Assembly (NCBI RefSeq): GCF_016863015.1
Contig: NZ_BOOB01000036.1
Span: forward strand, 62,001-126,000
Length of the DNA stretch: 64,000 bases
From: Microbispora amethystogenes
Lineage (GTDB): Bacteria > Actinomycetota > Actinomycetes > Streptosporangiales > Streptosporangiaceae
Direction: 5' to 3'
Shown here: in pieces, positions 48,563-53,900 of the stretch
Numbering within the stretch: position 1 is the first letter of the stretch
How the letters are laid out: each line of letters starts with the position of its first letter
Notes under the pieces: model-generated
What the model saw: only the letters and a program-made list of their open reading frames with translations
Databases searched by the model: none
Told to the model about the DNA's origin: nothing
Translations under genes and position numbers: made by a program

Positions 48563-48619
48563 TCAGTGGTTCGCCTCAGTGGCTCGCCTCAGGGGTTCGC
48601 CTCAGGGGTTCGCCTCAGT
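48563..48619 (-). repeat. 13-bp tandem repeat at the 3' end of the symporter gene
   Basis: Four units of about GGTTCGCCTCAGT/G (48568-48580, 48581-48593, 48594-48606, 48607-48619) run across the actP stop codon. On the minus strand each unit carries TGA, and 13 is not a multiple of 3. The four TGAs, plus one more at 48563-48565, therefore fall in all three frames. Confidence 0.9.
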
Positions 48620-50213
48620 GACCGGTGGCCTGCTCGGCGCCGATGCCGGTGAGCGAACGGACCTCGATCTCGGCGTACTTCGACGCGTTGTACTCCTTGC
48701 TCAGGATCGTGCCGAGGTAGCCGCACAGGAAGCCGATCGGGATCGAGAAGATGCCGGGGTTCGACAGCGCGATCAGGTGGAAGTCCACGTCGGGGAACAT
48801 CGCCGTCTTGGCGCCGGAGACGACCGGCGAGAAGATCACCATCACCACGGCGGAGATCAGGCCGCCGTAGATGGCCGACACCGCGCCTGCCGTGTTGAAC
48901 CTCTTCCAGAACAGGCTGTAGAGGATCGCCGGCAGGTTGCCCGAGGCGGCGACCGCGAAGGCCAGCGAGACGAGGAAGGCCACGTTGAGCGACTGGGCGA
49001 AGATGCTCAGCGCGATCGCGACCGCGCCGATCACGAAGGCGGCGACCCGGGCGACCACCAGTTCCTGCCGCTCCGTGACGTCCCCGCGCTTGAACACGTG
49101 GGCGTACAGGTCGTGGGCGAAGCTGGAGGACGAGGCGAGCGTGAGCCCGGCGACGACCGCGAGGATCGTGGCGAACGCGACCGCCGCGATGACCGCGAGC
49201 AGCACCGTGCCGCCGACGTCGCCGAAGACCTGTGCGCCGATCTCCTGGGCGAGCAGCGGCGCCGCCGTGTTGCCCGACTTGTCGATCTTGCCGTGGACCA
49301 GGGCCGCCGCGCCGAAGCCGAGGACCAGCGTCAGCAGGTAGAAGACGCCGATGATGCCGATGCCCCAGAGGACCGACTTGCGGGCGTCCCTGGCGGTCGG
49401 CACGGTGTAGAAGCGGATGAGGACGTGCGGCAGACCGGCGGTGCCGAGAACCAGGGCCAGGCCGAGGCTGATCAGGTCGATCTTGCCCCAGATGCCCTGG
49501 GCCTCGGTGCCGTACTTGAGGCCGGGGGTGAGGAAGGCCTCACCCTTGCCGCTCGCCGTCGCGGCGTCGCCGAGCAGGCCGGACAGGTTGAAGCCGAACT
49601 TGCCCAGCACGAGCAGGGTGATCAGGGCGGCACCGACCATCAGCATGACGGCCTTGACGATCTGCACCCAGGTGGTGCCCTTCATGCCGCCGAAGACCAC
49701 ATAGATGATCATCAGCAGGCCGACCGCGATGATCGTCCAGATCTTGCCGGCCTGCGAGGTGATGCCCAGCAGCAGCCCGACCAGGGCGCCCGCGCCGACC
49801 ATCTGCGCGAGCAGGTAGAAGATGCTGACGACGATCGTCGACACGCCGGCCGCCGTACGGACCGGGCGCGGGGACATCCGGAACGCCAGCACGTCGGCCA
49901 TCGTGTACTTGCCGGAGTTGCGCATGAGCTCGGCGACGAGCAGCAGCGCGACCAGCCAGGCGACGAGGAAGCCGATCGAGTAGAGGAAGCCGTCGTAGCC
50001 CGACAGCGCGATGATGCCGGCGATGCCGAGGAACGACGCGGCCGACATGTAGTCGCCGCCGATCGCCAGGCCGTTCTGCAGGCCGCTGAACGAGCGGCCC
50101 CCGGCGTAGAAGTCCGCCGCGCTCTTGGTGTTGCGGCTGGCCCAGAACGTGATCCCCAGCGTGAGGGCGACGAAGACCACGAAGAGGATCGTGGACAGGG
50201 TCTCGTGACTCAC
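48615..50213 (-). CDS. Cation/acetate symporter (ActP/MctC type)
   Basis: A 532-residue sodium:solute symporter with about 13-14 membrane helices. SSS-family marks are FYAGGRSFSGLQNGLAIGGDYMSAASFLG, VFGGMKGTTWVQIVKAVMLM, GTAGLPHVLIRFYTVPTARDARKS and LTLASSSSFAHDLYAHVF. It imports acetate, propionate or pyruvate with Na+ or H+. GTG 50213 overlaps the stop of the DUF485 gene by 4 bp. It ends in a 13-bp tandem repeat. A paralogous symporter lies at 52425-53900. Confidence 0.93.
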   Translation of the reverse strand: MSHETLSTILFVVFVALTLGITFWASRNTKSAADFYAGGRSFSGLQNGLAIGGDYMSAASFLGIAGIIALSGYDGFLYSIGFLVAWLVALLLVAELMRNSGKYTMADVLAFRMSPRPVRTAAGVSTIVVSIFYLLAQMVGAGALVGLLLGITSQAGKIWTIIAVGLLMIIYVVFGGMKGTTWVQIVKAVMLMVGAALITLLVLGKFGFNLSGLLGDAATASGKGEAFLTPGLKYGTEAQGIWGKIDLISLGLALVLGTAGLPHVLIRFYTVPTARDARKSVLWGIGIIGVFYLLTLVLGFGAAALVHGKIDKSGNTAAPLLAQEIGAQVFGDVGGTVLLAVIAAVAFATILAVVAGLTLASSSSFAHDLYAHVFKRGDVTERQELVVARVAAFVIGAVAIALSIFAQSLNVAFLVSLAFAVAASGNLPAILYSLFWKRFNTAGAVSAIYGGLISAVVMVIFSPVVSGAKTAMFPDVDFHLIALSNPGIFSIPIGFLCGYLGTILSKEYNASKYAEIEVRSLTGIGAEQATGH

Positions 50214-50554
50214 TTGGCGCCCTCCCCGACCTCGTCGCGGCTGTCGGCCGCGGTGCGCAGCTCGTCGGCGAGCGGGTCGAGCTTCGCCGCCGCGTGCCGC
50301 GAGTACGCCCAGGCGATCAGGAACGTCGAGACGAACTGCAGCACGCCGAAGACGAGGGCGACGTTGATGTTGCCGAACAGCTTGGTGCCCATGAAATCCC
50401 GGGCGAAGCCCGACAAAAGCACATAGAGGAGGTACCACACCAGGAAGGCGATGGTCATGGGGAAGGCCCAGGACCGGTAGCGGCGGCGCAGCTCCTGGAA
50501 CTGCTCACCCGCTTGTATACGCTCATAGACCGATGGATCGTGCTGGACGGTCAC
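50210..50554 (-). CDS. DUF485 membrane protein, symporter partner
   Basis: A 114-residue two-helix membrane protein. YERIQAGEQFQELRRRYRSWAFPMT is followed by a hydrophobic segment (AFLVWYLLYVLLSGFA) and a second one (LVFGVLQFVSTFLIAWAYSRHA). It matches DUF485 (YjcH), which is coexpressed with acetate symporters. It is the first gene of the two-gene operon, overlapping the symporter gene by 4 bp (GTGA). Confidence 0.92.
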   Translation of the reverse strand: MTVQHDPSVYERIQAGEQFQELRRRYRSWAFPMTIAFLVWYLLYVLLSGFARDFMGTKLFGNINVALVFGVLQFVSTFLIAWAYSRHAAAKLDPLADELRTAADSRDEVGEGAK

Positions 50555-50827
50555 AAGATCTCCTTGGGCAAGTGATCTGAATCACCACAACGTAGGAGCG
50601 TGGTGCACCCGCCGACGAGCCCCGGGGACCGCCGCATCGCCCAGCCGTGTCGCCGGATCGTTCACATGGCGCGACAATGCGACGAATGGTCGGTTGCGCG
50701 CGCCGAACGGTCACGCCACCGCGGTACGTGAAACGCTTCAGCCGTCGCGGTGCGAAGGCGGGGTGAGCGAGCGCAAGCCATACCCGAGCGATTCACCCGA
50801 CGAACGGTGGACCATCGGCAGCAACTG
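50555..50827. other. Gap between DUF485 promoter side and TIKI-like gene end
   Basis: This 273-bp gap has no credible gene. It should hold the promoter of the DUF485/symporter operon. Its GC content is normal to slightly low, with GATCTCCTTGGGCAAGTGATC just upstream of the DUF485 start. No clear terminator for the convergent-side TIKI-like gene was seen. Confidence 0.5.
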
Positions 50828-51667
50828 TCACATCAAGGCCGGCTCTATCACTACGGCGTGACTGGAGCCGCAGATCACGAACACTCGTTCGCCTTGGGCG
50901 CTGAGATGGGAGACAAGGCGGACCAGATACCTGTTGCGTTGATCATTGGAATCCTCGGTCAGTCGCTCGAGATAACCGGGGAGAACGGTCTCGTCGGACA
51001 CGTCCCGCCAGTCTTTGCCGCCGGCGAAATCGCGCCGCCAGATGCGGTCGATGTCGGCGACGCTATTGATCTCTCCGCGTATCGCCGGGTGATCCGCCCG
51101 GCCGAGGAACTCCTCCACGAAGGCCTCCGGCGACTCAGGTTTGCCAAACCGCAGCTTACTGAAGTAGGGCCTTAACACCATGAAGAGCGCTACCCGGTCC
51201 TTCGCGTGCACGCGGGCGAGATAGGCGATGTGCTCGTCAAGCGGCTGCTCCCACGTGTACGCCTGCACATCGTCCTTCTTGGCCAGCGCGTACACGTGAC
51301 CCGACTCGCCATAGTGCTCCACCGGATCCATAAAACCCGGCGCGAGGAATCCCAACCTGCCTTCGACCAGGGCAACGGTGGGGCGCAGCTCCCGCCACAT
51401 CTCGTCGATCTGCCGGAGCTGCCGATCGACGGATGCGGGCTTGTGCTCAGCCCCGAAGACGACCACGTTGCCATGGCGGTAGGTGTAGGGACGGCGGTGC
51501 TCTTCGGAGTACTGCGACCGTGGAATGATGCGCGCTTCCGCGGGGGATGTCGCCGGCGGCTGCGGGTAATAGGCCGGCGACCGCCAGAAGTAGGTGAACG
51601 TCAGCAGCGCGAGCGTTGAGGCCGCCACCAGCAAGGACACGACCGCCCATAGCAGAACTCCTCGCAT
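50828..51667 (-). CDS. Membrane-anchored TIKI/TraB/GumN superfamily protein
   Basis: A 279-residue protein with one N-terminal transmembrane helix (residues 4-26) and an outward domain. The domain has the marks of the TIKI/TraB/PrgY/GumN superfamily: a first GxxH at residues 72-75 (VVVFGAEHKPAS) and Glu102 in ALVEGRLGFLAPGF. RNRYLVRLVSHL at 245-256 and a second GxxH at 267-270 (FVICGSSHAVVIEPAL) follow. These two GxxH motifs and the Glu are the proposed metalloprotease-like active site of the superfamily. The fold assignment is inferred. It is the last gene of an ArsR-coiled-coil-TIKI operon. Codon use and GC are slightly lower than in the neighbours. Confidence 0.78.
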   Translation of the reverse strand: MRGVLLWAVVSLLVAASTLALLTFTYFWRSPAYYPQPPATSPAEARIIPRSQYSEEHRRPYTYRHGNVVVFGAEHKPASVDRQLRQIDEMWRELRPTVALVEGRLGFLAPGFMDPVEHYGESGHVYALAKKDDVQAYTWEQPLDEHIAYLARVHAKDRVALFMVLRPYFSKLRFGKPESPEAFVEEFLGRADHPAIRGEINSVADIDRIWRRDFAGGKDWRDVSDETVLPGYLERLTEDSNDQRNRYLVRLVSHLSAQGERVFVICGSSHAVVIEPALM

Positions 51668-51668
51668 G

Positions 51669-51962
51669 TCAGCTCACGCTGCGGAGCAGCTCGTGTATAC
51701 CGCCCGTGTCCGCTTTGACCGCAGCCAACTCTGAGCGCAGCGCAGCTATCTCATCCGCCTGTGCCTGCTGGGCGGCGAGGGACTTCACCGCGAGATCACG
51801 CAACGCGTTGTCGCGGTCGACCGCGGCCCGGGCCTCCCACGCGCGGCGCCACTGCCTGGTCACGTAAACCGCCAGCAGGGCTACCACGGCGAGTGTGATC
51901 ACAAATCCGAAGGTGCCCTGCCAAGCAACCAGATCAATGCTCTCGTCCACCGATTGAGTCAC
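51669..51962 (-). CDS. Small membrane protein with coiled coil
   Basis: A 97-residue protein with one transmembrane helix (about residues 17-37) followed by a basic stop (RQWRRAW) and a cytoplasmic coiled coil (DEIAALRSELAAVKADTGGIHELL). It resembles small accessory membrane proteins with no assigned function. It overlaps the ArsR stop by 4 bp (ATGA) and is 1 bp from the next gene, so the three genes are one operon. It may anchor or multimerise the TIKI-like protein; this is inference. Confidence 0.8.
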   Translation of the reverse strand: MTQSVDESIDLVAWQGTFGFVITLAVVALLAVYVTRQWRRAWEARAAVDRDNALRDLAVKSLAAQQAQADEIAALRSELAAVKADTGGIHELLRSVS

Positions 51963-52255
51963 TTCTCCTCCATTGTTCGTACCGCGTCCTGGATCGCTTC
52001 CGGGGTGAGCTGAAAGGCGAACGGCGCGACATCGAAGAACCGCATCGCCTTGCCGTCAGCGGACAGCTCCATCCGGCCGACGACAAGCCCCACCTCTTCC
52101 AGCCGGCGCAGGTGCATGTGCACCAACGGCCGGCTCAGCTGGAGCTCACGAGCCAACTGACTGACGTAGTTGCTGCCACCGGCCAGCGCCGCGATCAACC
52201 GCAGCCGCTGCGGGCTCGCCAGCACTGCCAGCACCCCAACAAGATCGGAGCCCAT
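51959..52255 (-). CDS. ArsR-type winged-helix regulator
   Basis: A 98-residue winged helix-turn-helix protein: LAVLASPQRLRLIAALAGGSNYVSQLARELQLSRPLVHMHLRRLEEVGLVVGRMELS. It lacks the CxC/metal-site cysteines of classical ArsR sensors, so the inducer is unlikely to be a thiol-bound metal. It starts at ATG 52255 behind GGGAG. It opens the operon with the coiled-coil and TIKI-like genes. Two matching palindromes lie 22-55 bp upstream and are the likely autoregulatory operators. Confidence 0.87.
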   Translation of the reverse strand: MGSDLVGVLAVLASPQRLRLIAALAGGSNYVSQLARELQLSRPLVHMHLRRLEEVGLVVGRMELSADGKAMRFFDVAPFAFQLTPEAIQDAVRTMEEK

Positions 52256-52276
52256 GACGCTCCCTTCTAGCTCGTG

Positions 52277-52310
52277 CTGACACGTGTCAGTCGTAACTTA
52301 CACATGTAAG
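52277..52310 (-). promoter_or_regulatory. Twin palindromic operators of the ArsR-TIKI operon
   Basis: CTGACACGTGTCAG (52277-52290) is a perfect 14-bp palindrome. CTTACACATGTAAG (52297-52310) has the same layout with 6-bp arms around CA. They share CTkACA-N2-TGTmAG and their centres are 20 bp apart (about two helical turns), 22-55 bp upstream of the ArsR start. This is the arrangement expected for two stacked winged-helix dimers that block the operon promoter. Confidence 0.75.
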
Positions 52311-52424
52311 TGTGTTTGGAACAGCCTCGTACACCGAACGGCGGGGCGTGATCGTGCGAAACCGGTTTTCGTTGCGATGTCCCTCAGCCCCCAGGAGAAC
52401 GCCGGACCACAGGGAAACGCCGGG

Positions 52425-53900
52425 CTACATGTGCCGGGGACGCCAGTCGCCGCGGTCGACGTTCAGCGTCTCCGGCGTGTGCAGGCGGACCATCGTGCGG
52501 GCCACGCCGCGCGGCACCCGCGAGGGTGTCAGCAGCGACACCGTCACCATGACGGTGAACGACACGGGCACCGTCCAGGCGGCCGGCTCGGCCAGCAGCG
52601 ACCCCGCCCAGCCGGTGTGCGGGCCGCCGCTGATCGTCACGACCACGGCGGTGCAGGCGAGCCCTCCCCCGGCCAGCAGCCCGGCGAACGCCCCCGTCGT
52701 GGTCAGCCTGCGCCACCAGATGCCGAGCACGAGCAGCGGGCAGAACGACGAGGCGGCCACGGCGAACGCCAGCCCCACCACGGTCGCCACCGGCAGCGAC
52801 CTGGCCACCCCCGCCAGCGCGAACGGCACGACCACCGCGAGCACGGTCGCGTAGCGGAACGAGCGCACCCCGCCGCGCAGGATGTCCTGCGCGATCACCC
52901 CGGCGACCGACACCGTCAGCCCCGACGAGGTGGACAGGAACGCCGCGAACGCCCCCGCAGTCACCAGCGCGGTGAGGAACTCCCCCACCGGGCCGCCCAC
53001 CAGCCGCCCGGGGAGCGTGAGGACGACCGTGTCCCCCGCCGGCACGCCGTAGACGTGGCCGAGGTAGCCGTACACGGCGGGCATCACGTAGAAGGCGCCG
53101 AGCAGCGTGAGCACGACGAGCGTGGTGCGGCGCGCGGCCCGGCCGTCAGGGTTGGTGTAGAAGCGGACGAGCACGTGGGGCAGTCCCATGGTCCCGAGGA
53201 ACGTCGCCAGGATCATCGAGTACGTCTCGTACACCGGGTGGTCGCGGCCGTGCAGCGGCAGCGCCCACTCGTCTCCGGCGGCGAGCCCCGGCGCGCCGCC
53301 GGACCACCAGGCCATCAGCATGAACACCAGCGGCAGCGCCAGCGCGGTGAGCTTCAGCCAGTACTGGAACGCCTGCACGAACGTGATCGACCGCATGCCG
53401 CCCGACAGCACGTTCGCCGCGACCACCGCCGCCACCAGCAGGCTGCCCGCCCACGGCGGCGCCCCCGTGATCGTACGGAAGACCAGCCCGGCGCTCTGGA
53501 ACTGCGGCATGAGGTAGAGCCAGCCGATCAGCACGACGAGGACGCTCGACAGCCGCCGCACGGCCATCGACTCCAGCCGCGCCTCGGCGAAGTCGGGCAG
53601 CGTGTAGGCCCCCGAACGGCGGAGCGGCGCCGACACCAGCACCAGCAGCACGAGGTAGCCGCCGGTCCAGCCGACCGGCAGCCACAGCATGTCGGCGCCG
53701 AACGTGAGGATGAGCCCCGCGACGCCGAGGAACGAGGCCGCCGACAGATACTCCCCGCCGATCGCCGAGGCGTTCCACAGCGGCGAGACGGTGCGGGACG
53801 CGACGTAGAAGTCCGAGGTGGTGCGGGACATCCGGATGCCGAACGCGCCGATGAGAACGGTCGCCAGCAGCACCACGCCGACCGCGGTGATCTGACTCAC
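52425..53900 (-). CDS. Sodium:solute symporter (ActP-like)
   Basis: A 491-residue symporter with about 12-13 helices, paralogous to the 48615-50213 gene: DFYVASRTVSPLWNASAIGGEYLSAASFLGVAG, VLSGGMRSITFVQAFQYWLKL, FLGTMGLPHVLVRFYTNPDGRAARR and STSSGLTVSVAGVIAQDIL. It probably carries a monocarboxylate such as acetate, propionate or pyruvate. GTG 53900 is the start. It is the last gene of a unit with LytS-like kinase, LytTR regulator and a small membrane subunit, suggesting that the substrate controls its own uptake. Confidence 0.92.
   Translation of the reverse strand: MSQITAVGVVLLATVLIGAFGIRMSRTTSDFYVASRTVSPLWNASAIGGEYLSAASFLGVAGLILTFGADMLWLPVGWTGGYLVLLVLVSAPLRRSGAYTLPDFAEARLESMAVRRLSSVLVVLIGWLYLMPQFQSAGLVFRTITGAPPWAGSLLVAAVVAANVLSGGMRSITFVQAFQYWLKLTALALPLVFMLMAWWSGGAPGLAAGDEWALPLHGRDHPVYETYSMILATFLGTMGLPHVLVRFYTNPDGRAARRTTLVVLTLLGAFYVMPAVYGYLGHVYGVPAGDTVVLTLPGRLVGGPVGEFLTALVTAGAFAAFLSTSSGLTVSVAGVIAQDILRGGVRSFRYATVLAVVVPFALAGVARSLPVATVVGLAFAVAASSFCPLLVLGIWWRRLTTTGAFAGLLAGGGLACTAVVVTISGGPHTGWAGSLLAEPAAWTVPVSFTVMVTVSLLTPSRVPRGVARTMVRLHTPETLNVDRGDWRPRHM

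Follow-up and report, generated by a model that had tools for sequence, protein, structure and literature searches.

A putative operator, an ArsR-type repressor, and a small membrane protein form a conserved module in Actinomycetota and Bacillota that may link the membrane to DNA

Results

A compact gene trio with one putative operator

The window analyzed here, a stretch of 64,000 nucleotides from Microbispora amethystogenes, carries on its minus strand three closely packed genes preceded by a putative operator. The features, in window coordinates, are as follows.

51959 to 52255, minus strand: gene for an ArsR-type winged-helix repressor of 98 aa, with a match to HTH_5 and with Phr (2p4w) as the closest solved fold.
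51669 to 51962, minus strand: gene for a small protein of 97 aa with a single transmembrane (TM) segment (residues 16 to 34), a predicted N-out/C-in topology, and a conserved C-terminal tail.
50828 to 51667, minus strand: gene for a 279-aa protein with an N-terminal anchor (TM residues 4 to 22), a remote TraB/GumN/TIKI-like candidate and a rare cargo.
52280 to 52307, no strand assigned: putative operator dyad of 28 bp, ACATGTGTAAGTTACGACTGACACGTGT in the minus-strand reading, 24 bp ahead of the ArsR start codon.
50765 to 52329, no strand assigned: unit common to other genomes (50765 to 52311 with G010, M. triticiradicis; 50827 to 52329 with G203).
Approximately 50737 to 52412, no strand assigned: stretch missing at the orthologous site in the genus (11 of 11 other loci; edges accurate to within tens of bases).

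The tight layout described in the original prediction is borne out by the open reading frames on the minus strand, with a 4-bp overlap between the ArsR and one-TM genes and a 1-bp gap between the latter and the 279-aa gene. The second product likewise answers to its description as a one-helix membrane protein with a coiled coil, having one hydrophobic segment and a predicted coil. Twin palindromes had been placed ahead of the repressor; they are present there, but as the half-sites of one 28-bp dyad rather than as two elements.

The repressor belongs to HTH_5 (PF01022; E value of 2.7e-13, 50 bits against a gathering score of 22), and its structure model (pLDDT of 91.8) gave Foldseek matches to SmtB, CzrA, and NolR. 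It stays below the cutoffs of narrower models, scoring 42.5 bits against 55 for the ArsR/SmtB metalloregulators (NF033788), 19.7 against 100 for SdpR (NF033789), and 29.6 against 320 for Phr (NF053602). By profile (4.2e-14) as well as by fold (2p4w_A; E value of 2.3e-5, 34% identity), the nearest solved structure is that of Phr, an archaeal stress repressor, a longer protein of about 200 residues that carries an additional C-terminal part; the window repressor has 98. The available sections of PMC10746257 describe Phr of Pyrococcus furiosus as a palindrome-recognizing repressor of heat-inducible genes and mention no membrane partner, in contrast to the coil protein of the module. As predicted, metal-binding cysteines are missing: the window repressor contains no Cys, nor does any of 40 relatives. 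Cys-based metal sensing was therefore discarded. Forty aligned repressors (the window plus 39, with L051 omitted, as its coil protein is nearly identical to that of L061) form 35 clusters at 90% identity.

The repressor travels with a small membrane protein

Of 297 host-family genomes, 88, spread over 31 of 68 genera, have a match to the repressor at an E value of ≤1e-15. One locus apiece was fetched from 40 of these 88 genomes, and every one of them has, at an offset of -8 to +4 nt from the stop of the ArsR gene, a frame for a protein of 72 to 121 aa with a strong TM segment; the offset is -4 nt in 26 loci and -1 nt in 8. The same pair is present in the shorter loci of three further genomes among the 88 (G210, G238, and G307). 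As a control, 29 further HTH_5 genes from the window genome were examined, and not one precedes a small TM gene, whereas the window ArsR gene does; the control took 30 of the 36 HTH_5 matches in the genome (those with loci, window included), and pairing was scored as the presence of a small TM open reading frame, with limits that differ slightly between the family loci and the control.

Beyond the family, the pair is present in two of three Actinomycetota genomes, G760 and G384, the latter with, by eye, an MMPL-like start next. In the third, G390 (L078:1495-1900), the ArsR gene is present, but the frame behind it stops within a few codons; among the 56 loci read, this is the sole exception. 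ArsR matches were tallied in at least 4 of 396 genomes of the phylum; scoring was limited to 11 candidates per genome, so the true number may be higher. At the best place in each plasmid record, the pair was found in 8 of 8, with gaps of up to +29 nt; the hosts are three Streptomyces strains and five Bacillota (Peribacillus, Paenisporosarcina, Niallia, and two near-identical Exiguobacterium). A contig from the virus collection, L161, also has it, bringing the total to 55 of 56 loci. A phage origin was considered and rejected: no phage record matches a family ArsR protein (that of L040) at 1e-10, and one virus-collection contig, L161, does.

The Bacillota plasmid copies have no evident cargo, in records whose annotation is incomplete. 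The Paenisporosarcina pair lies near Hachiman and Pycsar-effector annotations, and the Exiguobacterium pair lies near macrolide-resistance genes (L084, L086, L087 set).

A conserved dyad precedes the repressor gene

A dyad, nCAcnTGtaAantttTncTTaCAtGTGn, stands before the ArsR gene, and a dyad with CANNTG ends is found ahead of it in both phyla. With a leave-one-out model, from which sites more than 80% identical were excluded, and against first-order random sequence as the background, the dyad was recovered at a P value of <0.01 in 44 of 45 sequences, the window among them; L083 of Streptomyces decoyicus gave no significant dyad. L041 was omitted from this analysis, since its contig ends there, and the range for L056 was lengthened by hand past the chosen start. 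A model built without Bacillota placed its top site across the ArsR ATG in all five plasmid loci from Bacillota (one strand scanned, roughly 8.3 kb per locus), with sites that fit or nearly fit CANNTGTAA-N8-TTACATATG and P values of 0 to 0.0055; the best site of L161, scored without shuffles, likewise overlaps the ArsR ATG. Taken together, these comparisons indicate that the predicted operator dyad, the ArsR-type repressor, and the small TM protein belong together as a module of three parts that is conserved in both Actinomycetota and Bacillota.

Within 539 kb around the 40 loci, scores of >12 bits away from ArsR fronts were reached at three places only (L057, L058, and L074). The match in L057, of 20.5 bits and about 6,880 bases after the ArsR start, is a possible second target. 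In the 8.13-Mb genome, the pattern CANNTGTMAG-N6-CTKACANNTG has one exact place, 52281 to 52306 of the window, and two more with two mismatches. This single exact place makes it most likely that the repressor serves, and through the dyad controls, its own operon, so that the self-regulation originally proposed gains the backing of a conserved predicted operator.

The small protein resembles PspB in outline

The window protein, like 47 of the 49 members overall, has a single hydrophobic segment; L051 and L061 each have two. K and R are commoner after the strongest hydrophobic segment than before it in all 49 members, as they are in E. coli PspB, added as a 50th row, and hence the coil should face the cytoplasm in the predicted topology. 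Counted from a basic anchor column, whose position depends on the alignment, to the C terminus, 29 of 40 members have 52 residues, 6 have 45, 2 have 59, and the other 3 have 42 or 47. The length is thus 52 or 52 ± 7 in 37 of 40, i.e., it changes in heptad steps, as in a continuous heptad coil. A heptad shuffling test gave a P value of <0.05 in 35 of 50 rows (the PspB row counted). All 40 members fit a C-terminal tail motif that was widened after the sequences were inspected and is therefore descriptive; a narrower motif fits 21.

Searches of Pfam and NCBIfam gave nothing above the cutoff for the window small protein or the 279-aa protein. PspB profiles do not touch the window small protein; Pfam PspB (PF06667) touches 12 of 40 members (best, 7.5e-4), and TIGR02976 (PspB) touches 10 of 40 (best, 6.2e-6). 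Numerous unrelated TM or coil models touch the members as well, DUF4381 for instance 13 of 40. An hhalign comparison of the family with PspB covered 24 columns only, at a probability of 71. The resemblance lies in the architecture: a lone hydrophobic segment is followed, on the side rich in K and R, by a short predicted coil with an IxxLExIL-like stretch. In the sections of PMC3068692 available, PspB, which has a leucine zipper motif, is proposed to transduce membrane stress together with PspC; the partners of PspB named there are PspC and PspA, whereas the proposed partner of the small protein is an ArsR repressor.

Cargo differs from locus to locus

A gene of an MMPL-type cluster (about 718 aa, assigned by Pfam from two scanned members, L040 and L063) lies next or next but one to the pair in 21 of 41 loci, preceded in L071 by a PF13796 gene. 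The other same-strand next genes belong to an oxidoreductase cluster (six loci; the one member scanned is a zinc-type dehydrogenase) or encode VTT/DedA proteins (two), a ketoacyl-synthase III (one), a protein with a beta-lactamase fold (one), or the 279-aa protein (three: window, G203, and G010). A same-strand next gene is thus present in 34 of 41 loci, in 29 of which it is of one of three recurrent types; it is on the opposite strand in 6, and one locus is at a contig end. Neighboring genes were called with a simple script, so lengths and starts are rough. Judged by these gene orders, the cargo is different at different loci, and the 279-aa gene is a rare cargo here. Of the co-occurrence expected for the trio, the part that holds is the pairing of ArsR with the coiled-coil protein; the full trio was found in only three genomes. 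One fixed system of three obligatory parts was therefore rejected, and the third gene is regarded as an optional cargo.

Membrane cargo (MMPL type, VTT, or the 279-aa protein) is present in 26 of 41 loci, which suggests that the module answers envelope stress or membrane-active compounds. The remaining 15 lack adjoining membrane cargo (6 oxidoreductase, 1 ketoacyl-synthase, 1 beta-lactamase fold, 6 opposite strand, and 1 contig end).

The cargo also bears on the idea that the ArsR protein is a ligand-sensing autorepressor that acts without a partner, the coil protein being merely a coexpressed effector, e.g., an accessory subunit of an exporter. Many ArsR proteins do sense small ligands directly, and the MMPL-type product of 21 loci could be assisted by a small protein. 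However, the small protein is kept at loci with oxidoreductase, VTT, or 279-aa cargo and at those where no cargo is evident; it tracks the regulator and not the cargo. In addition, all 40 repressors lack the Cys residues with which a metal or redox site could be built. We consider this explanation unlikely.

A 1.5-kb unit most likely gained at the window site

The window (64 kb) can be aligned with the 16-kb stretches from the other two trio genomes only over 50765 to 52311 (G010) and 50827 to 52329 (G203). The module and the 279-aa gene thus form a unit of 1.5 kb whose three sites are unrelated to one another, with flanks unlike those of the window. For the window-G010, window-G203, and G010-G203 comparisons, dN/dS is 0.37, 0.21, and 0.25, respectively, for the 279-aa gene; 0.28, 0.29, and 0.20 for the ArsR gene; and 0.07, 0.48, and 0.49 for the coil gene. 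The trio is not a chance arrangement, because the G010 and G203 copies match the window only over the trio, with dN/dS values of 0.37 and 0.21 for the third gene.

In the window, the unit lies between a DUF485-plus-sodium:solute symporter pair (48615 to 50554) and a second symporter gene (52425 to 53900). The neighboring symporter gene is present in 15 of 15 genus genomes searched, the own genome included, and in 11 of 11 other loci (14 genomes), that of G010 included, the symporter and DUF485 sides abut without the 1.7 kb. These comparisons make it most likely that the unit was gained at the window site. By eye, its edges show no clear target duplication or terminal repeat.

Such transfer as a unit, together with two small overlapping genes, predicted autoregulation, and plasmid copies of which those in Bacillota carry no evident cargo, is what might be expected of a toxin-antitoxin-like or plasmid-maintenance pair, in which the TM protein harms the membrane unless an autoregulating HTH protein restrains its synthesis or action. 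The regular presence of a same-strand next gene, mostly of the recurrent types, and the long conserved coil predicted to be cytoplasmic argue against such a pair, as does the lack of any PADLOC match for the window small protein, and we regard it as quite improbable.

The 279-aa protein and the TIKI/TraB superfamily

The 279-aa protein carries GxxH at residues 72 to 75, E102, R244, and a second GxxH at 267 to 270. G72-H75, E102, and G267-H270 are invariant in the three known copies, all of which thus have the GxxH-Glu-GxxH order; two GxxH motifs with a Glu between them make up the motif list of TraB/GumN/TIKI. The kinship with this superfamily that was originally proposed stands in part. Like TraB/PrgY/GumN proteins (TIKI, PF01963), the protein has these motifs and an RN..GxxH C-terminal stretch, and PF01963 touches all three copies. 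The best E value, however, is 0.027, below the cutoff, and IFRD, an unrelated family, does better at 0.003; the window protein scores 13.2 bits against a gathering score of 26.8, with about 40 C-terminal residues aligned and the N-terminal part outside the alignment. DUF5694 (PF18950), a family related to TraB/GumN/TIKI, has a match below significance in the window copy, located where PF01963 matches. A homemade profile of eight TraB proteins ranked the three copies 1 to 3 of 381 (E values of 0.2 to 0.53), aligned on RN..GxxH, and hhalign against E. coli YbaP alone gave a probability of 0.2. The PF01963 model found no member in 25 relatives and the PF18950 model none in 31, the own genome included in each; for the latter, control genomes matched nothing either. 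AlphaFold2, run on the only three sequences of the protein, gave a mean pLDDT of 40.8, too low for a usable model. On these motifs and profiles, we regard membership of the TIKI/TraB kind as an even question. The TM segment at residues 4 to 22 with R2 ahead of it suggests that the domain is exoplasmic, and the membrane-anchored protein may be a hydrolase.

Among the 297 family genomes, strong matches to the 279-aa protein are confined to G000, G010, and G203; a fourth match, G288, is an IucA/IucC protein, and L005 likewise proved to be an IucA/IucC synthetase. In a class sample, the own genome alone matched (1 of 394). Among genome contigs, the only relative is in M. triticiradicis, whose QFZU02000050.1 match and G010 were counted as one copy. 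Plasmids gave none to an E value of 1e-5 (four weak records, E values of 2 to 8), and phages and virus contigs gave none. Besides the own genome, 28 of 396 phylum genomes have weak matches (E values of 7.6e-4 to 0.77), the best of which, L134, is a long open frame judged by eye to be noncoding.

Discussion

SdpR is an ArsR-type protein, and the SdpR/SdpI system of Bacillus subtilis is like the module in that an autorepressor shares a two-gene operon with a membrane protein. According to the available sections of PMC1626106, SdpI, a putative polytopic protein, sequesters SdpR at the membrane; the module partner, with one TM segment and a predicted cytoplasmic coil, is in contrast not polytopic. 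By analogy with this system, with PspB in its membrane-stress circuit as a second precedent, and from the gene arrangement, we lean slightly toward a regulatory cassette in which a membrane coil captures the autorepressor and so frees the operon and its cargo. We infer that the repressor binds its own predicted operator, keeping the operon low; that a change in membrane state or another signal would lead the coil of the partner to bind the repressor; and that the coil would then hold it off the DNA, allowing the operon and cargo to be expressed. The 279-aa protein, displayed outside the membrane, would be a hydrolase-like effector of the response. Points against capture are the score below the SdpR cutoff, the weak and scattered PspB matches, the 15 of 41 loci without membrane cargo, the Bacillota plasmid copies without evident cargo, G390 without a coil protein, the failure of L083 in the operator test, and the two segments in L051 and L061.

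The same anatomy is compatible with an effect of opposite sign, in which the coil tethers the repressor at the membrane and strengthens repression near membrane-attached DNA until a signal releases it. In the precedents of SdpI and PspB, as far as the available sections of the sources go, membrane capture or contact leads to induction, and we consider tethering very improbable. Capture of the repressor could be extended, tentatively and at somewhat less than even confidence, to a minimal membrane-to-DNA switch that crosses phyla, with one operator, a Phr-like repressor, and a PspB-like capturing coil; such a control head would be interchangeable, placed in front of transporters, VTT-type membrane proteins, oxidoreductases, and an exoplasmic TIKI-like hydrolase, and would move between genomes as a 1.5-kb unit. 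If this is true, the logic of SdpRI, a membrane-held autorepressor, exists with a much simpler PspB-like sensor in two phyla. Small genes that now carry the labels "ArsR family regulator" and "hypothetical protein" would gain a definition as one module, for which the DNA site, the partner, and the signal route are all predicted, and this would open to experiment how many membrane genes, MMPL-type ones among them, are controlled.

Among the matches listed from the open-license literature, there was no description of an ArsR-plus-coil module, which is weak support for its absence there. The available sections of PMC5898192 concern another setting, Thermococci, in which an ArsR gene is named in the vicinity of a coiled-coil protein that is secreted.

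It is of note that in G203 (L036:4635-11885) and G010 (L037:8645-13614) the trio has as neighbors a regulator gene of the BTAD (SARP/AfsR) type and a gene for the ATPase of an ABC transporter, unlike the window copy with its symporters. The order of these genes differs between the two genomes, the stretches are 67 to 68% alike in DNA, and the G010 ATPase has a DrrA-like C terminus.
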